A DNA stretch of 64,000 bases, from the NCBI RefSeq assembly GCF_030246925.1, contig NZ_CP126740.1:62001-126000 (forward strand). Reading direction: 5' to 3'. A model generated the notes under the pieces. The model had not been told where the DNA came from. It did no database searches and saw only the letters and a program-made list of their open reading frames with translations. Source of the DNA: Microbacterium sp. zg-Y625 (lineage in GTDB: Bacteria > Actinomycetota > Actinomycetes > Actinomycetales > Microbacteriaceae). The position numbers and the translations under genes were made by a program. How positions within the stretch are numbered: the stretch's first letter is position 1; each line of letters starts with the position of its first letter. Below are positions 1 to 57,485 of the stretch, piece by piece.

Positions 1-576
1 TACGGCGACGACATGGTCGACCTCGGCGCGTGGAACGAAGACGCCAAGCTCACCTTCGCGGTGAATGAGGACGCGCCGATCGACTCGATCGAGGAGCTCG
101 CCGACAACGCCGACCTCTTCGGCAGCACGATCTACGGCATCGAGTCGGGCTCGGGTCTTGCGACCGTCACCGACGAGGCCGTCATCCCCGGCTACGGCCT
201 GGAGGCCTTCGACCACGTGACGTCGTCGACCCCGGCGATGCTCACCGAGCTCGACACGGCCACGCGCGCCGGTGAGAACATCCTCGTGACGCTGTGGCGT
301 CCGCACTGGGCGTATGACGCGTTCCCGATCAAGGACCTCGAGGACCCGAAGGGGCTGCTCGGCGAAGCCGAAGGCATCCACTCGTACGCCTCGACGACGT
401 TCGAGGAGGACTTCCCCGAGGTCTTCGAGTGGCTGAGCGCCTTCGAGATGGACAGCGAGACGCTGTACTCGCTCGAGAACGCGATGTTCAACGAGAGCGA
501 CAGCGACGACTACGAGGACATCGTGGCCGAGTGGATCGCCGCGAACGAGGAGTATGTCACTTCGCTGACCTCCTGA
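1..576 (+). CDS. Glycine betaine/proline ABC transporter substrate-binding protein, 3' part
   Basis: The reading frame is open from base 1 and ends with TGA at 574-576, so only the last 191 residues are present. The sequence looks like the C-terminal lobe of the OpuAC/ProX family of extracytoplasmic compatible-solute binding proteins. It shows a segment around GIESGSGL, an internal Trp-rich stretch (LWRPHWAYDAF) of the kind that forms the aromatic cage for quaternary ammonium ligands, and an acidic surface typical of secreted actinobacterial lipoproteins. The family delivers glycine betaine, choline or proline to an ABC permease. The permease and ATPase genes would lie upstream, outside the window. 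Family assignment is by eye; the exact ligand is not determined. Confidence 0.8.
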   Translation, partial: YGDDMVDLGAWNEDAKLTFAVNEDAPIDSIEELADNADLFGSTIYGIESGSGLATVTDEAVIPGYGLEAFDHVTSSTPAMLTELDTATRAGENILVTLWRPHWAYDAFPIKDLEDPKGLLGEAEGIHSYASTTFEEDFPEVFEWLSAFEMDSETLYSLENAMFNESDSDDYEDIVAEWIAANEEYVTSLTS

Positions 577-587
577 CCGCGCGCTCG

Positions 588-641
588 CGAGTGAGTATTC
601 GCGCTCGCGAGTGAGTATTCGTCGCTTCGAGTGAGTACTCG
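588..641 (+). repeat. 20-bp tandem repeat array 1a (3 units, sense to upstream gene)
   Basis: Three copies of CGAGTGAGTATTCG start at 588, 608 and 628, exactly 20 bp apart; the third has GAGTACTC. They begin 11 bp after the stop codon of the binding-protein gene and run in its direction. The same element recurs inverted at 675-787 and at 6025 and 14535. Confidence 0.9.
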
Positions 642-646
642 TGGGA

Positions 647-664
647 CCGCGGCTTCGGCTGCGG
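647..664. terminator. UUCG-loop hairpin between the two opposed repeat arrays
   Basis: A 7-bp stem (CCGCGGC/GCTGCGG, one G-U pair) closes a TTCG tetraloop at 654-657. It lies at the centre between convergent genes and between the sense and antisense repeat arrays. It is a plausible bidirectional terminator, without a T-run. Confidence 0.5.
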
Positions 665-674
665 GCGTCTCCAT

Positions 675-787
675 GAGTACTCACTCGTCGGCGTTCACGC
701 TCACTCGGCGAACCGAGTACTCACTCGCCCTGCCGAATACTCACTCGTCGACGCGAATACTCACTCGGCGACGCGAATACTCACTCG
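675..787 (-). repeat. 20-bp tandem repeat array 1b (6 units, sense to the minus-strand gene)
   Basis: Six inverted copies (CGAATACTCACTCG on the plus strand) have cores at 675, 695 (degenerate), 715, 735, 755 and 775, with strict 20-bp spacing. Read on the minus strand they follow the gene ending at 781. The TGA stop codon of that gene (781-783) is itself part of the first unit. Confidence 0.9.
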
Positions 788-1509
788 GGGGTTCCGGAGG
801 TGATCTCCAGCGACACCTTCGTCTCGAGCACGTCGATCGCCTCGTCCGACAGCGCGATCAGGCCGTTGAGCTCCTCGCGCACCCGCTTGTACGCCAGCTG
901 CCGTTCCGAGGGCGTCGCCGCCTGATCCACCGCGACCGACAGCAGCTGCTGCGCCGTCGCCAGGCGCTTGCGCTCCACCTCGCTGAACGATGAATCCCGC
1001 ATGCGCCGCGCTTCGCGCTCGGCCAGGTCGAACGCCACCTCGAACTCCGTGACGGCCCTGCGGTACTCGTCGAGCTGCTCCGCCGACACCTTCGCATTCG
1101 CCGATTCCGGCCGCAGGTGATCGGCGTGCTTCTTCGCCCGCAGGAAGGCCGCCGTCAGGGGCTGGCGCCCGTCGCTCATGGCGGGGAAGGCGATCAGCTT
1201 CGCCACATCGAGCTCGTAGTCGAGCCAGCGCTGCGTCACACCGTCGTGCAGCGCGAACAGCTGCTCGAGCTGGCTGGGCTGCGGCGATGGGCGGGTGATC
1301 GCCGTGGGAATGGATGCCGTGGCCACCGGACGTCCCCGGGCTGCCGCCTGCGCTGCCTTCAGCTCGCTCTTGGCGCGGATGATCTCGAGGCGCCGCTTGT
1401 GCCGGCGCTTGCTCGCCCGCTGCCACCCCTCCCATGCCCCGCCGAACACCCCGGCCAGCGGGAACGCCAACCACCAGTAGCTCCCGAGAAAGGTGACCAG
1501 CTCATCCAC
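781..1509 (-). CDS. Membrane-anchored coiled-coil protein, paralogue of the next gene
   Basis: This 242-residue protein has unknown function. The N-terminus has one hydrophobic segment (about residues 8-25, YWWLAFPLAGVFGG) followed by a basic cluster, which suggests a single membrane anchor with a cytoplasmic body. Residues about 30-60 and 90-230 are charged, helical and probably coiled coil. A WLDYELDVAKLIAFPAM block followed by LTAAFLRAK is shared with the gene at 1549-2328. The start is GTG at 1509; a TAGCAT -10 hexamer lies 6 nt upstream with no Shine-Dalgarno site, suggesting a leaderless mRNA. The stop codon lies inside the 20-bp repeat. I do not recognise a known domain. Confidence 0.75.
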   Translation of the reverse strand: MDELVTFLGSYWWLAFPLAGVFGGAWEGWQRASKRRHKRRLEIIRAKSELKAAQAAARGRPVATASIPTAITRPSPQPSQLEQLFALHDGVTQRWLDYELDVAKLIAFPAMSDGRQPLTAAFLRAKKHADHLRPESANAKVSAEQLDEYRRAVTEFEVAFDLAEREARRMRDSSFSEVERKRLATAQQLLSVAVDQAATPSERQLAYKRVREELNGLIALSDEAIDVLETKVSLEITSGTPE

Positions 1510-4859: not shown

Positions 4860-5008
4860 GCGGCTCAGCTCCAGGGATTCGTCGGGGCGCCGGACGGGTC
4901 CATCCTAGTCGCGCGCGGCTTTCGCCCGGGGTCGCGGCGACACCTCTCACAGGCGCGCGGCGTAGCGTGAAATCAGCCCGAAAGGGAAGCGAACACGAAG
5001 GAGCAGCC

Positions 5009-5956
5009 ATGAAAGCCTGGCAGTTCACCGGAACCCACCAGCCGCTCGTCCTGAACGAGGTGCCCGATCCCGAACCGGGGCCCGGCGAGGTGGTGCTGAA
5101 GATGACGGCGGCAGGCCTGTGCCACTCCGACGTCGGCGTGCTCGAGGACGAGGGCTGGCTCTCGATGCTCGCGAAGCTCCCCATCACGCTGGGGCACGAG
5201 AACGCGGGTGTCGTGGCGGCCGTGGGTGAGGGCGTCACCGACTATGCGGTGGGAGACCGGGTCGCGGTGTGTCCGACGACCGCAGTCGGCGCTCCCGGCT
5301 ACGGATACGACGGCGGCTTCGCGGAGAAGATGGCCGTGGCCGCCGAGGCGCTCGTCCCCATCCCCGAGGGCGTCGACGACGTCTACGGGGCGGCGGCGAC
5401 GGATGCCGGCATGACCTCGCACGCCGCGGTCATCACCAACGGCGGCGTCAAGGCCGGCGACACGGTCGGCATCATCGGGCTGGGTGGGCTCGGCCAGATC
5501 GGCGCCCGCGTCGCCGTGCTCGCCGGCGCGACGGTCTACGTGGCCGAAGTCAACGAGTCCGTCTGGCCGCTGGCTGAGGAGATCGGCGCGGCGGGAGTCG
5601 CGGCATCCATCACCGATTTCCCGGACGTCACCTTCGACGTCATCGTCGACTTCGCCGGATTCGGCACGACCACGGCGCAGGCCGTCGACGCCATCCGTCG
5701 CGACGGCACGGTGGTCGTGGTGGGCATGGGCAAGCTCGAATCCACCATCAGCACGAAGTCGCTGATCCTCAACCAGTGCATCCTGCGGGGTTCCAATGGC
5801 GGTACGAAGGAGGACATCGTCGGCGTGTACGAGTACATGAAGACGGGGCAGCTGAAGCCCGAGACCACGACGATCCGCTTCGACGAGATCGCCGAGGGCC
5901 TCGAACGGCTGCACCGCGGCGAGGTGAAGGGCCGCCTGGTCGCGACGTTCGACTGA
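5009..5956 (+). CDS. Zinc-dependent alcohol dehydrogenase lacking the structural-zinc lobe
   Basis: This 315-residue medium-chain dehydrogenase/reductase has catalytic zinc ligands in GLCHSD (Cys38) and GHEN (His63-Glu64) and a Rossmann fold at GIIGLGGLGQIG (about 159-170). Most family members carry a four-cysteine structural zinc loop after GDRVAV. Here GDRVAV is followed directly by CPTTAVGAPGYGYDGGFAE with no cysteine cluster, which explains the short length (about 340-350 is usual). I chose ATG 5009 because AAGGAG lies 6 nt upstream; an upstream ATG at 4967 has no ribosome site. The substrate is unknown. Downstream lies a three-unit 20-bp repeat array. Confidence 0.85.
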   Translation: MKAWQFTGTHQPLVLNEVPDPEPGPGEVVLKMTAAGLCHSDVGVLEDEGWLSMLAKLPITLGHENAGVVAAVGEGVTDYAVGDRVAVCPTTAVGAPGYGYDGGFAEKMAVAAEALVPIPEGVDDVYGAAATDAGMTSHAAVITNGGVKAGDTVGIIGLGGLGQIGARVAVLAGATVYVAEVNESVWPLAEEIGAAGVAASITDFPDVTFDVIVDFAGFGTTTAQAVDAIRRDGTVVVVGMGKLESTISTKSLILNQCILRGSNGGTKEDIVGVYEYMKTGQLKPETTTIRFDEIAEGLERLHRGEVKGRLVATFD

Positions 5957-6024
5957 CGGCGGTTCGCAGCGCACGCGACGTCCGCCACCGACGTCGACCG
6001 GGCCGGCCTCGGCTGACCCGCTCC

Positions 6025-6078
6025 CGAGTGAGTATTCGCGTCGCCGAGTGAGTATTCGCGTCGCCGAGTGAGTATTCG
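6025..6078 (+). repeat. 20-bp tandem repeat array 2 (3 units)
   Basis: CGAGTGAGTATTCG occurs at 6025, 6045 and 6065. The array starts 69 bp after the alcohol dehydrogenase stop, in the same direction as that gene, and precedes the hairpin at 6095-6160. Confidence 0.9.
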
Positions 6079-6094: not shown

Positions 6095-6160
6095 GAGACC
6101 ATCGTGGGCTCCGAGCTCTCGCTCGATGAGCGCTTGCTCGGAGCCCACGGGATGAGTCTC
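6095..6160. terminator. Long hairpin between convergent genes
   Basis: Arms 6103-6116 and 6136-6149 pair perfectly over 14 bp. The stem extends outward (GAGAC at 6095 with GTCTC at 6156), and the loop holds a nested CGCTC/GAGCG stem. Position between a plus-strand and a minus-strand gene suggests a bidirectional terminator. Confidence 0.7.
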
Positions 6161-8499: not shown

Positions 8500-8559
8500 A
8501 CTCTCGCTCACGCTGGTCGACACCTCGTCCCTATGGGTATCGACTGAGGAGGGAACCAG

Positions 8560-9273
8560 GTGCGGGTAAACAAGATGCGCTCAGCCGATGGCGTTTCGCC
8601 CGCTGATGTGTCGCTCCTTCTGATGATGGTGTTGACGTTCGTCACCGGTGTCGTCGATGCTGTCGGCTTCCTCGCGCTGGACCGGGTGTTCGTGGGGAAC
8701 ATGACGGGCAACATCGTGATCCTGGGAATGGCCGTCGCCGGAGCGGACGATCTGCCGATCCTCGGTCCGGCCATCGCTTTGGGTACCTTCACGCTGGGTG
8801 CGTTCATGGCCGGGTTTGTGCTCCGTCGCCGGAGGAAGGAGTGGGGCGGTGCCGTGACGGTGCTGCTGGCCGCGGGCGCGGCGGTCCTCGCCGGCTTGGG
8901 AGTGGCGTTCCTCGTGCCCGCATGGGCGGACTCCTGGCCCCTCGAGCTGGTGGCCTCCTCGCTGACCGCCGCCGTGATGGGGGTCCAAGCCGCCGTGGCC
9001 CGCAGCCTGGGAGTCGCCGACATGACCACCGTCGTCGTCACCTCCACCCTTACCTCGCTTGCAAGCGAATCCCTGGTGGAACGGGGGGCCAAGGGCCTGT
9101 GGAATCGACGGTTCGCCGCGATCGCCGTCATTTTCCTCGGTGCGGTCATCGGGGCACTGCTTCTGGTCTTCGGTCCCGCAGTCCCGCTTCTCCTCGCGGC
9201 ACTGCTCACCGCCACCGTCGGGGCGGTCGGCCATCAGCGTCTCTTCACACCGGCGAAGGGGGCCGGCGCGTGA
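8560..9273 (+). CDS. DUF1275 (YoaK) family membrane protein
   Basis: This 237-residue protein has about six hydrophobic helices. It contains the DUF1275 signature near the N-terminus (VTGVVDAVGFLALDRVFVGNMTGN) and a second MTTVVVTSTLT motif around residue 155. The biochemical role of the family is unknown, although transport has been suggested. The start is GTG 8560 with GAGGAGGGAA upstream. The stop overlaps the next start by GTGA, so the protein is translationally coupled to the acetamidase. As the first gene of the ureide operon it may be an uptake or export component (inference). Confidence 0.85.
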   Translation: MRVNKMRSADGVSPADVSLLLMMVLTFVTGVVDAVGFLALDRVFVGNMTGNIVILGMAVAGADDLPILGPAIALGTFTLGAFMAGFVLRRRRKEWGGAVTVLLAAGAAVLAGLGVAFLVPAWADSWPLELVASSLTAAVMGVQAAVARSLGVADMTTVVVTSTLTSLASESLVERGAKGLWNRRFAAIAVIFLGAVIGALLLVFGPAVPLLLAALLTATVGAVGHQRLFTPAKGAGA

Positions 9274-11973: not shown

Positions 11974-13205
11974 CTGACGCGCCCATCCCCGGCCCGATCG
12001 ACCCGCCCGCCCGCCTCCTCATGGGGCCGGGACCGATTTCGGCCTATCCCAGCGTGCTGCGGGCGATGTCGGCGCCGCTCGTGGGGCAGTACGACCCCTT
12101 CATGACCACGACGATGCTCGAGACACAGCAGCTCTACCGTGGCGTGTGGGCGACCTCGAACGAGGCGACACTGCTCGTCGACGGCACGTCCCGCGCGGGG
12201 ATCGAGGCGGCGCTCGTCTCGCTCATCCGCCCCGGCGACCGTGTGCTGGTGCCGATCTTCGGACGCTTCGGCCACCTCCTCGCCGAGATCGCCGAGCGCG
12301 CGATGGCAGAGGTGCACACGATCGAGACCGAGTGGGGCCAGGTCTTCCCACCGTCGGTCATCGAAGAGGCGATCGTACGCGTGCGTCCGTCGCTCCTCGC
12401 CCTCGTGCACGGCGACACATCCACGACGATGATGCAGCCGCTCGACGAGATCGGCGCCGTCTGCGCCCGCCACGGGGTGCTGTTCTACACCGACGCGACG
12501 GCATCGCTCGGCGGCAACGAATTCGAAACCGACGCGTGGGGACTGGATGCCGCGACGGCCGGTCTGCAGAAGTGCCTCGGCGGTCCGTCCGGCTCGGCAC
12601 CGATCACGCTGTCGAGCCGGGCCGTCGAGATCCTGCAGTCGCGGAAGAAGATCGAAGCGGGCATCCGCGAGCCCGGCGACCCGTCGGCGCCCGACGCCGT
12701 CCGGTCGAACTACTTCGACCTCGGCATGATCCTCGACTACTGGGGGCCGCGCCGTCTCAATCACCACACCGAGGCGACGTCGATGCTCTACGGGGCGCGC
12801 GAGTGCGCCCGGGTCATGCTCCTCGAGGGCCGCTCCGCGGTGATAGCGCGGCACGAGCTCGCCGGCCGCGCCATGCTCGAGGGCCTGCGTGCGCTGGGGC
12901 TCGCCGTCTTCGGCGACGTCGCACACAAGATGAACAACGTCGTCGCGGTCGAGATCCCCGACGCGGTGCCGGGAGATGTCGCTCGCGCCGCCCTTCTGGA
13001 GGACTTCGGCATCGAGATCGGCACGTCGTTCGGACCGCTCCACGGCCGCGTGTGGCGAATCGGCACGATGGGCTACAACGCGCGCAAGGACGCCGTCCTC
13101 ACGACTCTCGCGGCCCTCGAGGCAGTCCTGATGCGCCATGGCGTCGCGGTGCCCGCGGGCGGCGGCGTCGAAGCCGCGACCGCCGTGTACGCGGGGGCGG
13201 TGTGA
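11970..13205 (+). CDS. pucG: PucG-like (S)-ureidoglycine/alanine-glyoxylate aminotransferase
   Basis: This 411-residue class V PLP aminotransferase starts with LLMGPGPISAYPSVLRAM, as in alanine/serine-glyoxylate transaminases. It has the PLP-aspartate stretch FYTDATASLGGNE and the Schiff-base lysine in GLQKCLGGPSG (Lys201). PucG enzymes transfer the amino group of (S)-ureidoglycine to glyoxylate, giving oxalurate and glycine. AllC, which makes ureidoglycine from allantoate, is encoded next, and an oxalurate-type amidase precedes it, so the context favours PucG over plain AGT or serine-pyruvate aminotransferase. Both ends overlap neighbours (ATGA upstream, GTGA downstream). Confidence 0.85.
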   Translation: MTDAPIPGPIDPPARLLMGPGPISAYPSVLRAMSAPLVGQYDPFMTTTMLETQQLYRGVWATSNEATLLVDGTSRAGIEAALVSLIRPGDRVLVPIFGRFGHLLAEIAERAMAEVHTIETEWGQVFPPSVIEEAIVRVRPSLLALVHGDTSTTMMQPLDEIGAVCARHGVLFYTDATASLGGNEFETDAWGLDAATAGLQKCLGGPSGSAPITLSSRAVEILQSRKKIEAGIREPGDPSAPDAVRSNYFDLGMILDYWGPRRLNHHTEATSMLYGARECARVMLLEGRSAVIARHELAGRAMLEGLRALGLAVFGDVAHKMNNVVAVEIPDAVPGDVARAALLEDFGIEIGTSFGPLHGRVWRIGTMGYNARKDAVLTTLAALEAVLMRHGVAVPAGGGVEAATAVYAGAV

Positions 13206-14512
13206 CCGTCCGGCTCGACGCGACCCCCGACCAGGTCGCGACGGCGGCCCGTCGGGTCATGGCCCGCTGTGAGGAGCTCGCGCGCGTCACCTCGGCCCCT
13301 GGGCGGATCGAGCGTGTCTACCTCTCGCCGGAGCACGCGCGGGTGAATCGGCTGGCGGCCGAATGGATGCGCGAACTCGGAATGACCACGCACCAGGATG
13401 CCGCGGGCAACCAGATCGGACGCCTCGAGGCGGCAACCGGCGCGATCCCGGACCGCGACGCACCGGCTCTCTTGATCGGCTCCCACCTCGACACCGTCCC
13501 TGACGCCGGGCGATACGACGGCATCGTCGGCGTGCTCATGGGCCTCGAAGTCGTGCGCCTGCTGCGAGTACCGGCACCTGACGACGCATGGCGCTCGCCG
13601 TTCCCGTTCGCCATCGAGGTCGCTGCGTTCTCCGACGAGGAGGGGACGCGGTTCGGGAAGGCGCTGCTCGGCTCGTCCGCCCTCGCGGGCACATGGGACG
13701 ACGACTGGTGGCGCCTGACCGATGCCGACGGCACAACCCTGCGCGAGGCCTTCCTCGACTTCGGCCTCGATCCGACGCGGTTGGGCGAGGCGGCGCGCCG
13801 CCCCGGCGACCTTGTCGGCTACCTCGAGGCCCACATCGAGCAGGGGCCGGAGCTTGATCGGCGCGGGGAGTCGCTCGCTGTCGTCTCCTCGATCGCGGGA
13901 GCCCGCCGCTTTCAGCTGCTCGTGGAGGGCGAGGCCCGTCACGCCGGCGGTACGCCTTACGACATGCGTCGCGACGCCCTGCTCGGGGCGTCCGAGGCGG
14001 CGCTCGCCATCGAAGCGATCTGTCGTGCGGAGCAGCACATCATCGGGACCGTCGGCCAACTCGAGGTCTTCCCCGGCGCCGTCAACATCGTTCCCGGGCA
14101 AGCTCGGCTCTCGGTCGACCTGCGGGGTGAGTTCGACGGTGAGCGCGACCGCACATGGGCGGCGATCTCCCGCGAGCTGGACGCGATCATGGGGCGCCGC
14201 GGGCTGAGGTGGTCGGGACATCAGGTGCACAGTGCGCCGGCCGTCTTCTGCGCGCCGATCCTGCAGGACGTCATCCGCGAGGGCATCGTCTCGACGCTGC
14301 CGCCCGGATCCGACGCGCCCGCCACGATCTTCAGTCGTGCCGGGCATGACGGCATGGCGCTCGGCGCCGTGACCGACGTCGGAATGATCTTCCTCCGCAA
14401 TCCCGACGGCATCAGCCATCATCCCGACGAGGCCGTTTCAGCAGCGGACGTCGCCCTCGGTATCCGCGCCCTCGCCGAATCCGTCCTCCACCTCGCCGCC
14501 GAACCGAGATGA
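13202..14512 (+). CDS. allC: Allantoate amidohydrolase / M20 Zn-dependent amidase
   Basis: This 436-residue M20-family hydrolase is related to AllC, ureidoglycolate hydrolase and N-carbamoyl-L-amino acid hydrolases. Metal and catalytic motifs are in order: GSHLDTVPDAGRYDG (about 100), SDEEGTRF (about 143), HIEQGPEL (about 216), GTVGQLEVFPGAVNIVPG, SRAGHDGMAL (about 380) and ISHHPDE. AllC cleaves allantoate to ureidoglycine, CO2 and ammonia. The GTG start overlaps the pucG stop (GTGA). It is the last gene of the operon and is followed after 22 bp by four 20-bp repeats. A carbamoylase function cannot be excluded from sequence alone, but the pucG neighbour favours allantoate. Confidence 0.85.
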   Translation: MTVRLDATPDQVATAARRVMARCEELARVTSAPGRIERVYLSPEHARVNRLAAEWMRELGMTTHQDAAGNQIGRLEAATGAIPDRDAPALLIGSHLDTVPDAGRYDGIVGVLMGLEVVRLLRVPAPDDAWRSPFPFAIEVAAFSDEEGTRFGKALLGSSALAGTWDDDWWRLTDADGTTLREAFLDFGLDPTRLGEAARRPGDLVGYLEAHIEQGPELDRRGESLAVVSSIAGARRFQLLVEGEARHAGGTPYDMRRDALLGASEAALAIEAICRAEQHIIGTVGQLEVFPGAVNIVPGQARLSVDLRGEFDGERDRTWAAISRELDAIMGRRGLRWSGHQVHSAPAVFCAPILQDVIREGIVSTLPPGSDAPATIFSRAGHDGMALGAVTDVGMIFLRNPDGISHHPDEAVSAADVALGIRALAESVLHLAAEPR

Positions 14513-14534: not shown

Positions 14535-14608
14535 CGAGTGAGTATTCGCGACGCCGAGTGAGTATTCGCGTCGCCGAGTGAGTATTCGCGTCGCCGAGTG
14601 AGTATTCG
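14535..14608 (+). repeat. 20-bp tandem repeat array 3 (4 units)
   Basis: CGAGTGAGTATTCG occurs at 14535, 14555, 14575 and 14595, separated by CGWCGC-type linkers. The array lies 23 bp after the allC stop, in the direction of the operon. Confidence 0.9.
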
Positions 14609-50483: not shown

Positions 50484-53400
50484 GTGTCCAACCTCGCCGT
50501 CCTGAGCCTCAAGAACCGCGCGCTCATCGCCCTCGTGACCATTGTCGCGGCTGTCTTCGGTGGCCTCGCGCTGACGAACCTCAAGCAGGAACTGATCCCC
50601 TCGATCGAGTTCCCCGCGCTGTCGGTCGTCGCGACCTACCCGGGCGCCTCGCCCGAGGTCGTCTCCAACGACGTCTCCACCCCCATCGAGACGGCGATCC
50701 AGGGCGTGCCCGGCCTCGAGTCCACGACGGCGACGAGCACCACCAACGCGTCCATCATCCAGGCCTCGTTCGCCTACGGCACCGACCTCGCCACCGCCGA
50801 GCAGAAGATCGTGCAGGCGATCAACCGCATCGAGGGGCAGCTGCCCGAATCGGTCGATCCGCAGGTGTTCAGCCTCTCGATCGACGACCTCCCGGTGATC
50901 CAGCTCGCGGTGACCGGCTACGACGACGAGGCGGCGATCCAGGAGCTTCTGGAGTCGACGGTGATCCCCGACCTCGAGGATGTCGCCGGCGTGAACGCGG
51001 CCGAGGTCGTGGGTGGGGTCGGCCAGCGCATCACCATCACGCCCGACCAGGCGGCTCTCGCGCAGGCGGGCTTCAGCGAGCAGGCGATCCGCGACGCGCT
51101 CGACCAGAACGGCGTGCTGTTCCCCGGCGGCGGCATCACCGAAGCCGACAAGACCCTCACCGTGCAGACAGGGGCGAAGATCTCCTCCGTCGAGGAGATC
51201 GGGCAGCTGCCCCTCGTGCCCACCGAGGCCGACCAGTTCGGCGCCGACACCGTGACGATCGCGGACGTCGCCACCGTCGCCGAAGAGACCGACCCGCAGA
51301 CCTCGATCTCGCGCGTGGACGGCGAGCCGGCACTGACCATCGCGGTCACGAAGCTCCCCGCCGCCAACACCGTCGACGTGTCCACGGGCGTGCTGGCTGC
51401 GCTCCCCGCCCTCGAAGAGGCGCTGGACGGCGCGGCGGAGTTCACCATCGTCTTCGACCAGGCCCCCTACATCCAGGAGTCCATCGCGGCGCTCGCGCAG
51501 GAGGGCCTGCTCGGCCTCGTCTTCGCCGTGCTCGTGATCCTGGTGTTCCTGCTGTCGGTGCGCTCCACTCTCGTGACCGCGATCTCGATCCCGACGAGCG
51601 TGCTCATCACGTTCATCGGCATCCAGGCGTTCGGCTACTCCCTGAACATCCTGACGCTCGGCGCGCTGACCATCGCCATCGGACGCGTCGTCGACGACTC
51701 GATCGTCGTGATCGAGAACATCAAGCGGCACTACGTCGGCACCGCGGACAAGATGCGCTCCATCGTGCTGGCGGTGCGCGAGGTGGCGGCGGCCATCACG
51801 GCATCCACCATCACGACCGTCGCGGTGTTCCTGCCGATCGCCTTCGTCGGCGACATGACGGGGGAGCTGTTCCGGCCCTTCGCCCTCACCGTGACGATCG
51901 CGATGACCGCCTCGCTCCTGGTCTCGCTGACGATCGTGCCGGTGCTGGCCTACTGGTTCCTGCGGCCGGGAAAGCAGCTGGTCGATGCCGAGGGGCGCGC
52001 GATCGACCCCGAGGACCCCGCCGCCCCGCCGTCGCGCCTGCAGAAGGCGTACCTGCCGGTGCTGCGGTGGACCCTGAAGCACTCCGCAGTCACCCTCCTG
52101 CTCGCCGTGCTGGTGCTCGCCGGCACGGTCGCGGCGGCGCCCTTCATGAAGACCAACTTCCTGGGCGACACCGGTCAGAACACCTTCACCATGACGCAGG
52201 ATCTCGGTCCGGCCGCCTCGCTCGAGGCGAAGGACACCGCCGCGGCCACGGTCGAGCAGGCACTGCTCGAGGTCGACGGCGTGGAGACCGTGCAGGTGTC
52301 GATCGGCTCCAGCGGGTCGGCCCTCGCCGACGCGTTCTCGGGCGGCTCCAGCGGAGCGACCTACTCGATCACCACCGACCCCGACGCCGATCAGCTCGCC
52401 GTGCGCGAAGACGTGCTGGACGCGGTGGCAGGACTCGAAGGCGTCGGTGACGTCTCGGTGTCGGCCGCGGGCGGCTTCGGCTCCAGCGACATCGCCATCG
52501 ACGTCACCGCGCCGGATCAGTCCACGCTGCAGGAGGCGACGGATGCCGTCGCTGCGGCGATCGAGGGGCGCGACGGTGTGCAGCAGGTCACGACGAACCT
52601 CGCGGCGTCGCTCCCCTACATCGCCGTGGTCGTCGACCGCGATGCCGCGGCCGCGCTGGGCCTGTCGGAAGTCTCGGTCGGCGCGCTGGTGTCGGGCACG
52701 ATGCAGCCGCAGCAGCTGGGAACCGTCGAGATCGACGACAGCACGCTGACGGTCTACCTCGCGGCGTCCCAGACCCCGGCGACCCTCGACGAGCTGCGCG
52801 AGCTGCAGGTGCCCTCGGCCATCGGGCCGGTCGCGCTGTCGGAGATCGCGACCGTCGAAGAGAGCCAGGGTCCGACCTCCATCACGACGGAGGGCGGACA
52901 GCGCACCGCGACCGTCAACGTCACACCCTCCGGCGATGACCTCACCGCCGCGTCGGCGGTCGTCACCGAAGCCCTCGCCGACGCCGAACTCCCCGCATCG
53001 GCCGACGCCACGGTGGGAGGCGTGCTCAGCCAGCAGCAGGACGCGTTCTCGCAGCTGGGCCTCGCCCTGCTGGCGGCGATCCTCATCGTCTACATCGTGA
53101 TGGTCGCGACCTTCAAGTCGCTGCGCCAGCCGCTGCTGCTGCTGGTGTCCGTGCCGTTCGCGGCGACCGGGGCCATCCTGCTGCAGATCGCGACCGGCGT
53201 GCCGCTGGGCGTGGCATCCCTCATCGGTGTGCTCATGCTCATCGGCATCGTGGTGACGAACGCGATCGTGCTCGTCGACCTCGTGAACCAGTACCGGATC
53301 AAGGGGCTGTCCGCACACGATGCGACCATTGCCGGCGGTGCACGACGCCTGCGCCCCATCCTGATGACGGCGCTGGCCACGATCTTCGCGCTCACCCCGA

Positions 53401-54131
53401 TGGCGCTCGGTATCACCGGTCACGGCGGCTTCATCTCGCAGCCGCTCGCGATCGTGGTCATCGGCGGCCTCATCTCGTCGACCGTGCTGACGCTGCTGGT
53501 GCTGCCCACCCTGTACAACCTGGTCGAGGGCGCCGCCGAGCGCCGCAGGTCACGCCAGTCGGGCGGGCTCGTGCCCGCGACCGCTGCTGCCGGAGTCGCG
53601 GCTCAGCCGACGAGCCGGCGCGACCGTCGCGCGCGCGCCGCGGCGGACTCGCTTCCGGTGGTCATCCCCGACGCCACGGGCCCACTCGCATCCGCGCCGG
53701 CGGCCGTGCCCGCCGTGGCGGAGGTTCCTGACTCCGCCGAGACGGAGACTGCTGAGACGGCTGATCCCGCCGACCCAGCCGAGGCCGCCGCCGCCGAGCC
53801 CGCGCCTGCCCGCCCGGACGAGGCCCAGACGGCCCTGTCGGGCGACGGCGACGCTGTCGCCGCCGACGCTGTCGCCGCCGACGCTGTCGCCGCCGACGCT
53901 GTCGCCGCCGACGCGGTGACGGCGCCCTCGAACCCCGGTGACGCGCGCGGCGAGACAGCCGCCGCCGAGACCGCCCGGGACGCCGACGGCCTTCGGCTCT
54001 CAGCGCTCACGAAGGCCGTGCAGCCGGCCCGCGTGGGCGAGAAGGCCCCCGCGGATGCGGACGCGGGTGCGGAAGCCGAAGCCGAAGCCGAAGCAACGCC
54101 GGCGGACCAGCCGGAGGATGACCGCCGCTGA
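50484..54131 (+). CDS. RND efflux transporter (AcrB/MMPL-like) with long acidic C-tail
   Basis: This 1215-residue RND-superfamily protein has about 12 transmembrane helices in two halves with large extracytoplasmic loops. It starts ALIALVTIVAAVFGGLALTNLKQELIPSIEFPALSVVATYPGASPEVVSNDV, as in AcrB-type HAE transporters. The proton-relay region GRVVDDSIVVIENIKRH (about residues 405-420) is intact. The C-terminal about 190 residues after the last helix are disordered, Ala/Asp/Glu-rich and repetitive. No membrane-fusion protein gene is adjacent, which is usual for single-membrane Gram-positive RND exporters. The start is GTG 50484 with AAAGGCAG upstream. Confidence 0.88.
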   Translation: MSNLAVLSLKNRALIALVTIVAAVFGGLALTNLKQELIPSIEFPALSVVATYPGASPEVVSNDVSTPIETAIQGVPGLESTTATSTTNASIIQASFAYGTDLATAEQKIVQAINRIEGQLPESVDPQVFSLSIDDLPVIQLAVTGYDDEAAIQELLESTVIPDLEDVAGVNAAEVVGGVGQRITITPDQAALAQAGFSEQAIRDALDQNGVLFPGGGITEADKTLTVQTGAKISSVEEIGQLPLVPTEADQFGADTVTIADVATVAEETDPQTSISRVDGEPALTIAVTKLPAANTVDVSTGVLAALPALEEALDGAAEFTIVFDQAPYIQESIAALAQEGLLGLVFAVLVILVFLLSVRSTLVTAISIPTSVLITFIGIQAFGYSLNILTLGALTIAIGRVVDDSIVVIENIKRHYVGTADKMRSIVLAVREVAAAITASTITTVAVFLPIAFVGDMTGELFRPFALTVTIAMTASLLVSLTIVPVLAYWFLRPGKQLVDAEGRAIDPEDPAAPPSRLQKAYLPVLRWTLKHSAVTLLLAVLVLAGTVAAAPFMKTNFLGDTGQNTFTMTQDLGPAASLEAKDTAAATVEQALLEVDGVETVQVSIGSSGSALADAFSGGSSGATYSITTDPDADQLAVREDVLDAVAGLEGVGDVSVSAAGGFGSSDIAIDVTAPDQSTLQEATDAVAAAIEGRDGVQQVTTNLAASLPYIAVVVDRDAAAALGLSEVSVGALVSGTMQPQQLGTVEIDDSTLTVYLAASQTPATLDELRELQVPSAIGPVALSEIATVEESQGPTSITTEGGQRTATVNVTPSGDDLTAASAVVTEALADAELPASADATVGGVLSQQQDAFSQLGLALLAAILIVYIVMVATFKSLRQPLLLLVSVPFAATGAILLQIATGVPLGVASLIGVLMLIGIVVTNAIVLVDLVNQYRIKGLSAHDATIAGGARRLRPILMTALATIFALTPMALGITGHGGFISQPLAIVVIGGLISSTVLTLLVLPTLYNLVEGAAERRRSRQSGGLVPATAAAGVAAQPTSRRDRRARAAADSLPVVIPDATGPLASAPAAVPAVAEVPDSAETETAETADPADPAEAAAAEPAPARPDEAQTALSGDGDAVAADAVAADAVAADAVAADAVTAPSNPGDARGETAAAETARDADGLRLSALTKAVQPARVGEKAPADADAGAEAEAEAEATPADQPEDDRR
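53850..53909 (+). repeat. 15-bp coding repeat (4 exact units)
   Basis: GACGCTGTCGCCGCC is repeated at 53850, 53865, 53880 and 53895, encoding DAVAA repeats in the RND C-tail. A GAAGCC repeat (EAEAEA) follows at about 54070-54093. Both are in-frame length-variable candidates. Confidence 0.85.
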
Positions 54132-55097: not shown

Positions 55098-55295
55098 TAT
55101 ACTCATTCGGTCGGCTTCGGACACTGCGCGTGGTGCGCGTGGATGGGTTTGTGAGTCCAAGGGGCCGATGGTGGGCGTCGATCGACGTGCATGACCACTA
55201 TCGATAATGGCCCCGGCCGATGGATGTCCGGGTTATACCTGCGTGCCAGCGGGTGCTGTTCTCGTGTGAAAGAGAACCCAGAAGGACATTTCCCC
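55098..55295 (+). promoter_or_regulatory. TATACT -10 and long structured leader of the DEAD-helicase gene
   Basis: TATACT (55098-55103) is the best -10 in the region and would give an untranslated leader of about 185 nt. The leader holds short inverted segments (for example GTCGATCGAC at 55176) and several ATGs. One at 55191 is in frame with the helicase but has no ribosome site. Long leaders are common for cold-shock DEAD helicases and allow RNA-level autoregulation; no known riboswitch is recognised. Confidence 0.45.
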
Positions 55296-57485
55296 ATGCC
55301 CAAGAGCAAGAAGCCCGCAGGCGGCCGTCCGGCCAAGAACTTCGAGCCCCGCTACGGCGCGAAGACCAGCTTCCAGGACCGCAAGCGCCGTCCCGGCGAG
55401 GCATCCACCGGCACCGCCGGTTCCAAGAGCCCCAGCCACCGCGGCTACCGCGCCCCCGAGCAGACCGCGGATGCCGCCCCCAAGCGCCGCTGGACCGCGC
55501 AGGAGAAGGTCGGCCGCGACGAGGCCCGCACGATCCGCACCCACGCACAGGGTGACGACCGCGGCGCCCGCCGGTTCGACGACCGTCCCCGCCGCGATGC
55601 CGCTGACCGTCCCGCGCGTTCCTTCGACGACCGCCCGGCGCGTTCGTTCGACGACCGTCCCCGCCGCGATGCCAGTGACCGTCCCGCGCGTTCGCACGAC
55701 GACCGCCCGGCGCGTTCGTACGGTGACCGCCCGCAGCGTGATGACCGCCCGGCCCGTTCGTTCGGCGACCGTCCGGCGCGTTCGTTCGACGACCGTCCCC
55801 GCCGCGATGCCGGTGACCGTCCCGCCCGTTCGTTCGGTGACCGCCCGCAGCGCGATGACCGTCCGGCGCGTTCGTTCGGTGACCGCCCGGCTCGTGACGA
55901 CCGTCCCGCCCGTTCGTTCAGCGACCGTCCGGCGCGTTCGTACGACGACCGTCCCCGCCGCGATGCCGGTGACCGTCCCGCCCGTTCGTTCGGTGACCGC
56001 CCGCAGCGCGATGACCGTCCGGCCCGTTCGTTCGGCGACCGTCCGGCTCGCTCGTACGACGACCGTCCCCGCCGCGACGCGAGTGACCGCCCGGCGCGTT
56101 CGTTCAGTGACCGTCCGGCCCGCTCGTTCAGCGACCGCCCTGCGCGTTCGTTCGACGACCGTCCCCGCCGCGACGACCGTGCCGAGCGCCCCGCGCGCTC
56201 GGACTGGAACGCCGAGTCCAAGACCAAGGCTCAGCAGGACCACGTCGACGTCGTGCACGAGCGCCTGCAGGCCGAGGCCGTGCAGGCCGTCGAGGTTGCA
56301 GATGTGAGCTTCTCGAGCCTGGGCTTGGGCGACAACATCGTCCGCGTGCTCAAGGACCTGGGCGCGCCGAGCCCCTTCCCGATCCAGGCGGCCACGATCG
56401 CTCCGATCCTCGAGGGCAAGGACGTGCTGGCCCGCGGCCGCACCGGCTCCGGCAAGACCATCGCCTTCGGCGCTCCCCTCGTGGAGTCGCTGCTGCGCTC
56501 GCAGGACGGCAAGCGTCGCGAGTTCGGCCGCAAGCCGAAGGCGCTCGTCCTCGCTCCGACGCGCGAGCTCGCGCTGCAGATCGACCGCACCATCCAGCCG
56601 ATCGCGCGCAGCGTCGGCATCTTCACCACGCAGATCTACGGCGGTGTGCCCCAGGCGCGCCAGGTGGGTGCGCTGAAGAAGGGCGTCGACATCATCATCG
56701 GCACCCCGGGTCGCATCGAGGACCTCATCGCACAGGGCAAGCTCGACCTCTCCGAGGTGCAGATCGTCGTGCTCGACGAGGCCGACCACATGTCGGAGCT
56801 CGGGTTCCTCGAGCCCATGCAGCGGATCCTCCGCCTCGTGGCCGACGGTGCGCAGAAGCTGCTGTTCTCGGCCACGCTCGACCGCGAGGTCGCGGCACTG
56901 GTCGACGAGTTCCTCGTCGAGCCGGCCGTCTACGAGGTCGCCGGCGAGGACCAGGACTCCAGCACGATCAACCACCGCGTGCTCGTGATCGATCACCGCG
57001 ACAAGGCTGAGATCCTGACGTCGCTCGTGGACCGCGAGGGCAAGACGCTCGTCTTCGCCCGCACCCGCGCCTACGCCGAGATGCTCGCCGAGCAGTTCGA
57101 CGATCTCGGCATCCCCGCTGTCGCCCTGCACGGTGACCTGAATCAGGCCAAGCGCACGCGCAACCTGCAGCGTCTCACCGACGGACGCGTGAGCGTGCTC
57201 GTCGCGACCGACGTCGCTGCGCGCGGCATCCACGTGGACGACATCGACCTGGTGATCCAGGCCGACGCGCCCGACGAGTACAAGACGTACCTGCACCGCT
57301 CCGGCCGCACCGGCCGCGCGGGCCGTGCGGGCACCGTCGTCACCCTCATCCCGCGTCAGCGCCGTCGGCGCATGACCGAGATGCTGGACCGTGCCGAGAT
57401 CGAGGCTCCCTTCGACGAGGTGCGCGTGGGCGACGACCTGCTCGAAGAGCTGTCCGGCCGCCAGCTGGCGGACGTCGTCGCGTAA
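55296..57485 (+). CDS. DEAD-box RNA helicase with Arg-rich repeat N-terminus
   Basis: This 729-residue protein has residues about 1-325 disordered and basic, with about 16 copies of DRPARS in units such as FDDRPARS, FGDRPARS and DRPRRDA, reminiscent of eukaryotic RGG-type tails. The helicase core starts about residue 334 with VADVSFSSLGLGDNIVRVLKDLG. It has the Q motif, Walker A ARGRTGSGKT, PTRELALQ, DEAD in VLDEADHMSE, SAT in LFSATLD and motif VI HRSGRTGRAGRAG. It probably unwinds structured RNA in cold adaptation or ribosome assembly. ATG 55296 follows GAAGGA by 9 nt. Confidence 0.93.
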   Translation: MPKSKKPAGGRPAKNFEPRYGAKTSFQDRKRRPGEASTGTAGSKSPSHRGYRAPEQTADAAPKRRWTAQEKVGRDEARTIRTHAQGDDRGARRFDDRPRRDAADRPARSFDDRPARSFDDRPRRDASDRPARSHDDRPARSYGDRPQRDDRPARSFGDRPARSFDDRPRRDAGDRPARSFGDRPQRDDRPARSFGDRPARDDRPARSFSDRPARSYDDRPRRDAGDRPARSFGDRPQRDDRPARSFGDRPARSYDDRPRRDASDRPARSFSDRPARSFSDRPARSFDDRPRRDDRAERPARSDWNAESKTKAQQDHVDVVHERLQAEAVQAVEVADVSFSSLGLGDNIVRVLKDLGAPSPFPIQAATIAPILEGKDVLARGRTGSGKTIAFGAPLVESLLRSQDGKRREFGRKPKALVLAPTRELALQIDRTIQPIARSVGIFTTQIYGGVPQARQVGALKKGVDIIIGTPGRIEDLIAQGKLDLSEVQIVVLDEADHMSELGFLEPMQRILRLVADGAQKLLFSATLDREVAALVDEFLVEPAVYEVAGEDQDSSTINHRVLVIDHRDKAEILTSLVDREGKTLVFARTRAYAEMLAEQFDDLGIPAVALHGDLNQAKRTRNLQRLTDGRVSVLVATDVAARGIHVDDIDLVIQADAPDEYKTYLHRSGRTGRAGRAGTVVTLIPRQRRRRMTEMLDRAEIEAPFDEVRVGDDLLEELSGRQLADVVA
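55565..56200 (+). repeat. Degenerate coding repeat in the helicase N-terminus
   Basis: Repeats built from CGTTCGTTCGACGACCGTCC-like units of 24-33 bp encode the DRPARS motifs. The near-identity of the DNA, not only the protein, suggests recent expansion or ongoing recombination. Confidence 0.85.

Follow-up and report, generated by a model that had tools for sequence, protein, structure and literature searches.

Arrays of a short repeat, in which 14-nt units follow each other with an exact period of 20 nt, are found throughout the genome of Microbacterium sp. zg-Y625 (G000), mostly at the 3′ ends of genes, and among the genomes searched real arrays of this core occur only in one clade of five Microbacterium species. 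In sense RNA the units are predicted to be self-complementary by means of G·U pairs, meaning that plain direct repeats would fold into long hairpins mainly in the sense transcript, a property that is newly described here. A role as RNA hairpins at 3′ ends, combined with a trans-acting factor that has been lost in one of the five species (G364), is the reading we favor, and to our minds it stands about an even chance of being right.

The window, meaning the whole stretch of 64,000 nucleotides analyzed here, corresponds to C1:62001-126000 of G000, which consists of one contig of 3,259,775 bases. Genes of the window and of the other G000 stretches analyzed were called with an own codon-usage script. 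The preliminary description had placed a 20-bp repeat at three sites, and core matches at 20-bp steps were confirmed in the regions around 588, 6025, and 14535. At the first site, the 3′ part of a plus-strand gene (1..576, with an ORF at 13-576 and the stop codon at 574-576) is followed by a plus-strand array of three units (588, 608, and 628; 588..641), whose head, that is the CGAG end, lies 11 nt past the stop at 576. It is faced by a minus-strand array at 674..787, for which sequence and core matches give units at 774, 754, 734, 714, and 674 plus one at 694 that is degenerate. Within its first unit (774-787) lies the TGA stop codon (781-783) of a minus-strand gene encoding 242 aa (781..1509). 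The facing arrays meet, as had been described, at a GC-rich stem with a TTCG loop (CCGCGGC-TTCG-GCTGCGG, 647..664). From the earlier count of three plus and six inverted units, the three plus and five minus units stand, whereas the sixth (694-707) is badly degenerate and without a match at ≤3 mismatches.

The second array of the plus strand consists of three units (6025, 6045, and 6065; 6025..6078) and begins 68 nt past the stop at 5956 of a plus-strand gene (5009..5956, with a longer ORF start at 4967), which we take from its sequence to encode a zinc-type alcohol dehydrogenase. About 25 nt past this array, a strong stem-loop is located at 6102-6145 (GTGGGCTCCGAGC...GCTCGGAGCCCAC); an ordinary hairpin and an array are thus found together. 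The third array comprises four units (14535, 14555, 14575, and 14595; 14535..14608, plus strand) and lies 22 nt past the stop at 14512 of the plus-strand gene 13202..14512, flanked by two co-directional genes. Every array of the window is therefore in sense orientation and follows a stop codon, as originally stated, at the distances given or, for the minus array, with the TGA inside it. The plus-strand cores show 0-1 mismatch to CGAGTGAGTATTCG with a spacing of always 20 bp; on the minus strand, the cores at 714, 734, 754, and 774 also show 0-1 mismatch and the core at 674 shows two. In total, 18 matches with ≤3 mismatches are found in the window compared with 4.5 expected, a number reached in none of 100 shuffles. 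Two further repeats of the window are of another kind. A perfect 15-bp tandem repeat at 53849-53914 (plus strand, 4.4 copies) codes for DAVAA in the C-terminal tail of the ORF 50484-54131 (1215 aa), presumably transporter-like, and the large plus-strand ORF 55191-57485, which we assume to be a DEAD-box RNA helicase from the way it reads, carries RSFxDRPAR-type repeats over a long N-terminal region (at the DNA level, 55574-56165).

Across the 3.26 Mb of G000, 292 exact copies of CGAGTGAGTAYTCG are present (152 forward and 140 reverse), against 0 copies of the reversed-pattern control in the whole genome; the repeat is real and far beyond chance. The stretches of G000 that were analyzed hold 277 of the 292 exact copies and were selected for arrays, so that absolute occupancy rates are inflated. 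Herein, 338 units group into 90 arrays of 2-9 units each, three being the commonest number, and the spacers between the units are exactly 6 nt long in 242 of 248 cases. The same length is found for 109 of 112 spacers in the stretches of G067 (39 arrays) and 42 of 45 in those of G031 (40 arrays). Core positions 1-8 are almost invariant. The spacers vary in sequence, with 99 different 6-mers among the 242 (CGTCGC in 25), and are more alike within an array than between arrays of G000 (0.68 versus 0.46). In G000 arrays of at least three units, the head is the better conserved end (mean mismatches 0.17, versus 0.40 for tails). Over all 90 arrays of G000, C11 is mainly a feature of the tail, being present in 21 of 90 last units versus 1 of 90 first units. 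In G025, several arrays on C11, C16, and C17 carry a variant core, CGAGTGAGCATTCG (T9>C), throughout. CRISPR arrays are composed of repeats of ~21-48 bp, alternating with unique spacers about as long, and lie next to cas genes; a layout of 14-bp cores and 6-bp spacers at ~90 loci does not belong to this class.

A looser double-unit pattern matches 12 of 366 Microbacterium genomes. True arrays of the core are present in five of them, with double-unit matches of 113+109 in G000, 94+73 in G067, 27+26 in G031, 18+17 in G025 (Microbacterium pullorum Sa4CUA7), and 3 in G364. The one or two matches each in G203, G204, G130, G143, and G015 are chance-like, and single matches turned up in four genomes with reversed double-unit controls as well. 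Two matches in G133 and one in G222 are of related cores (GAGTGCGTATTC, GAGTGCGGATTC). Both genomes lie outside the clade and have one short array each: in G133 (L216 ~8505-8575) with the related core CGAGTGCGTATTCG at period 20, which is fully self-complementary as RNA with G·U pairs, and in G222 (L227 ~5850-5960) with the related core CGAGTGCGGATTCG at period 21. Among 398 genomes of the family that were scanned, which include 389 from other genera, G000 is the only one to match, and in a collection of 84,980 species, which may lack records close to the genome of the window, the exact double unit is found only in Microbacterium pullorum. Viral contigs, phages, and plasmids gave 0 matches in exact or blastn-level searches, and a phage, plasmid, or viral origin was rejected. 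Identity of PurL to that of G000 is 98% for G031, 97% for G364, 96% for G025, and 95% for G067, and ≤93% among the others listed. In a DNA tree of this one gene (29 sequences), the five species form one clade (support 0.997), in which G364 is sister to G000 and G031 (0.993) and the grouping of G025 with G067 is weak (0.764).

The placement of the arrays follows the genes. Convergent intergenic regions are most often occupied (29 of 70, compared with 23 of 215 for co-directional and 12 of 92 for divergent regions, in the array-selected stretches of G000), and 52 of the 64 array-bearing regions are convergent or co-directional. The preliminary description held that arrays are oriented in sense to the gene they follow, and named random orientation of most copies as one result that would speak against this; the answer is mixed. 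The rule, which holds in the window, is strong genome-wide, with the head directed toward a gene 3′ end in 61 of the 88 G000 arrays for which both neighbors are known, but it is not universal: 27 of 88 face a 5′ end, divergent regions are occupied as well, and in 3 of the 23 array-bearing co-directional regions only an antisense array is present. Among the 61 arrays with the head toward a 3′ end, 55 begin ≤22 nt past the stop, and the TGA stop is contained in unit 1 (C GAG TGA) in 24 and in unit 2 in two. Fourteen of the 24 genes with the stop in the unit have an ortholog in G364, and eight of these 14 end at the same residue, which argues that the stop is often old, with the unit arising on it. 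Wherever a region has two arrays (24 cases), these are arranged head-out and tail-to-tail (> <), the gap being exactly 3 nt in 13 of them. A tally by nearest gene edge in G000 gives 57 arrays in sense at a 3′ end, 11 in antisense at a 3′ end, 19 in antisense at a 5′ end, and one in sense at a 5′ end; for nearest 3′ ends the ratio of sense to antisense is 28:6 in G067, 28:6 in G031, and 12:4 in G025, although orthologous sites cannot be counted as independent. Where an array stands alone, its head is the end closer to a gene in 33 of 40 cases, and in 10 of the 11 divergent cases among them. From the nearest-edge tallies, the rule is better restated: heads point at the nearest gene, usually at its 3′ end.

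Conservation was assessed in intergenic regions with both neighbors orthologous and adjacent. Array regions of G000 are also array-bearing in G067 (22 of 24) and in G031 (18 of 22), and in 39 of these 40 regions at least one array lies on the same strand as in G000, with unit numbers that usually differ. Core-column identity to G000 amounts to 0.835 in G031 (22 sites), 0.867 in G067 (24), 0.844 in G025 (14), and 0.556 in G364 (20), and spacer identity to 0.659, 0.525, 0.643, and 0.522, respectively; at least one unit with ≤1 mismatch is kept at 19 of 22, 22 of 24, 11 of 14, and 1 of 20 sites in the same order. These values bear on the proposal that the arrays are a functionless, quasi-palindromic repeat whose spread or expansion is due to replication slippage and template switching and which is tolerated chiefly in places that lack a promoter. 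Such a repeat would account for the changing unit numbers, for the greater likeness of spacers within arrays, as predicted by local duplication, and for the 3-nt gap in 13 of 24 facing pairs, a distance that fold-back copying could produce; the enrichment of arrays in convergent regions may likewise be a matter of tolerance. It accords poorly with core columns that stay alike between species while spacers diverge, with a strand that is kept at nearly all array-bearing orthologous sites, and with stop codons that fall in unit 1 far more often than in unit 2 and in uneven frames. A Y1/RAYT transposase that could mobilize it as a REP is also absent: the profile Y1_Tnp (PF01797) matches 0 of seven genomes and 5 of 14 control genomes. 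We consider a functionless repeat unlikely.

The direction of the unit is mirrored in its predicted RNA folding. In the motif GAGT-GAGT-AYTC, AYTC can pair with either GAGT. A duplex of two units is predicted at -14.2 kcal/mol in sense, in a register with G8·U11 and U5·G14, and at -2.7 kcal/mol in antisense. Over the 90 G000 arrays the predicted fold has a median of -25.0 kcal/mol, and it is stronger in sense than in antisense for every array of G000 (90 of 90), G031 (29 of 29), and G025 (17 of 17) and for 36 of 38 in G067, largely because the core is shared. For the window, predicted sense and antisense folds are -22.5 (z -2.4) and -12.5 kcal/mol (z -0.8) for the array at 588..641, -22.4 (z -4.5) and -10.4 kcal/mol (z -1.4) for 6025..6078, and -34.0 (z -4.9) and -17.1 kcal/mol (z -1.1) for 14535..14608; the minus array 674..787 reaches -49.3 kcal/mol in sense (z -3.5) and is also well folded in antisense (-38.5 kcal/mol, z -3.4). 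Among 628 units of four species, the commonest variants are T11>C (91, of which 84 keep pairing), a count inflated by an array detection that tolerates C at position 11 by design, and G14>A (63). Both turn a G·U of the favored register into a Watson–Crick pair. The variants C13>G (27), T9>C (26), G14>C (20), and T12>C (12) break this register, with T9>C strengthening the other one. Overall, 158 variant cells keep pairing in the favored, shifted register and 113 break it, compared with 132 and 154 for a simple hairpin within each unit (positions 1-14, 2-13, and so on), which was set aside as having the weaker support.

The action at the RNA level that the preliminary description had suggested is partly supported, by this sense-only self-complementarity, as far as it is predicted, and by a placement at gene ends that is conserved between species; the 27 arrays that face a 5′ end do not conform to it. 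Of the features of a canonical intrinsic terminator, a stable hairpin in the transcript is predicted, whereas a U-tract directly after the hairpin is absent. None of the 90 G000 arrays is followed within 30 nt by a T-rich stretch (5 T in 6), and the arrays are hence not canonical intrinsic terminators. In hairpin strength they match the array-less sites of G364 where genes converge. Across 11 convergent array sites, the best 50-nt fold has a median of -27.6 in G000, -15.3 with the arrays masked, and -28.0 in G364; at seven co-directional array sites, the values are -30.2, -20.1, and -23.4, respectively. Masking shortens the sequence and biases the masked folds toward weak ones, a bias also carried by the paired test over the 18 sites (p = 0.007). 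Sites without arrays give -23.3 in G000 and -24.3 in G364 when convergent (23 sites) and -27.1 and -26.0 when co-directional (60 sites). Several G364 sites show plain stem-loops right after the stop. The sense-only fold, the placement at 3′ ends, and the matched hairpin strength together favor an RNA element of the 3′ end.

In G364, 10 of 19 array sites exceed all 200 resamples in a score for two core-like words 20 bp apart, whereas in 123 control regions the same score reaches p ≤ 0.01 in none and p ≤ 0.05 in five. With the single intact array (L170:18760) left out, phased relics are present at 9 of 18 sites. These relics indicate that G364, which is nested in the clade, once had arrays and then lost them. 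A different repeat dialect in their place was rejected, since a 14-nt repeat of period 20 is found in 5 of 668 intergenic regions of G364, which is the background level, versus 66 of 407 in G000. The 10-mer GGATGCCGCG occurs in 49 of the 668 G364 regions. The intact array, L170:18760-18833, corresponds to L092:2180-2252 of G000; the adjoining gene is 96% identical to its G000 ortholog and the intergenic DNA is very similar, and the array is perhaps a recent import or a specially kept site. The gene order of G000 and G364 suggests a large inversion symmetric about the origin.

A purely cis-acting hairpin fails to explain a genome-wide decay in one species. This decay, like the constant spacer length and the presence of arrays at 5′ ends, favors something that acts in trans and that may read DNA. 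The arrays could accordingly be read as directional DNA-binding sites: a protein would bind at each of the 14-bp cores, which are spaced by two helical turns, and RNA polymerase arriving from the head side would be halted at the array, as at a stoperator, until the protein was lost in G364. Spacers that vary in sequence and hardly ever in length, almost invariant positions 1-8, occupied divergent regions, and heads that face the nearest gene whichever end it presents all fit such a roadblock, as does the precedent of the mycobacteriophage stoperators (PMC9283540). The exact spacer length, in particular, is unnecessary for a hairpin and counts against the RNA reading. A roadblock would, however, reduce the G·U self-complementarity and its orientation to coincidence, and tandem duplication alone keeps the period. 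A binding protein was also not found in the parts of the genomes compared: seven G000 genes are missing from the syntenic stretches of G364, none of them being a convincing binder or present in all three other carriers, in a comparison that spanned 1.195 Mb in G364 and 0.69 Mb in G000 and in which a factor is easily missed. We regard DNA binding of this kind as doubtful. The 5′-facing arrays, whose heads still tend toward the gene, argue against a pure 3′-end role in turn, and most of the evidence is accommodated by a hairpin array that works with a partner factor.

No described family was found to match, in line with the earlier statement and within the searches made: the exact 13-mer occurs in no paper, word searches returned no description of this family, and Rfam 15 gave 0 matches in the window at the gathering score. 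REP/BIME elements are described in PMC3733652 as high-copy short intergenic repeats that lie mostly downstream of genes in convergent or co-directional regions, are often paired oppositely, and are thought to act as RNA. Therein, a REP is a 20-40 bp DNA palindrome with a GTAG or CGTC tag at one end; the GTAG type is associated with a Y1 (RAYT) transposase, which CGTC REPs are said to lack. The arrays share the high copy number, the short and intergenic nature, the mostly gene-downstream placement, and the frequent opposed pairs. Unlike REP/BIME, they are direct tandem units at exactly 20 bp that are palindromic in RNA only, via G·U, and the core has no constant GTAG or CGTC tag. Mycobacteriophage stoperators, according to PMC9283540, comprise >20 asymmetric 13-bp sites whose orientation is matched to transcription and whose reversal abolishes the effect. 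Short asymmetric sites in many intergenic copies are common to both; orientation follows transcription there, as compared with the 61 to 27 division between 3′ and 5′ ends here. The arrays differ in being chromosomal, with 2-9 units at fixed spacing, in their self-complementary RNA, in their sequence, and in having no known repressor. Hairpin-cluster intrinsic terminators are reported in PMC8355165 as hairpins close after stop codons and often without a U-trail. The arrays agree with this in their predicted hairpins, but they form one repeated sequence family in dozens of genes of one clade and are built from direct repeats. The TAACTGA repeats of Beggiatoaceae (PMC4679880) are genome-wide sets of short intergenic direct repeats as well, with a proposed post-transcriptional role; these are 7-mers that lie mostly just upstream of start codons in distant phyla, in contrast to 14-nt units mostly at 3′ ends in one clade. 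The arrays meet the defining features of none of these four systems in full.

In the favored reading, the arrays would be a clade-specific family of 3′-end elements working as RNA. Two units of the sense transcript would pair by Watson–Crick and G·U pairs, and a run of direct repeats would thereby form a long hairpin; in antisense RNA, A·C clashes would leave a weak fold, and this strand asymmetry would give the repeat its direction. A hairpin of this type may replace a conventional terminator or a 3′-protecting hairpin for transcription leaving the gene head-first, with facing pairs serving both strands. The trans-acting factor, which could be an RNA-binding or DNA-binding protein or a driver of unit duplication, would keep the units alike, and its loss in G364 would have let nearly all arrays decay. 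The outcome could be termination, protection of the 3′ end, or processing. A more specific form is put forward only tentatively: orientation-specific insulation of transcription units, in which sense-only hairpins, read by a dedicated trans factor, would have replaced ordinary terminator hairpins at dozens of gene ends of one clade, and in which the factor would have been lost in one species, its sites decaying to ordinary hairpins.

If this is true, the lineage makes use of G·U pairs to turn plain direct repeats into strand-specific RNA hairpins, and terminator hairpins have been replaced genome-wide in one lineage. The five species form a ready natural experiment with four carriers and one loser, by which the cis element and the possible trans factor can be tested in a comparison of sister species, and the worn-away arrays of G364 make a role in ending or protecting transcripts testable.
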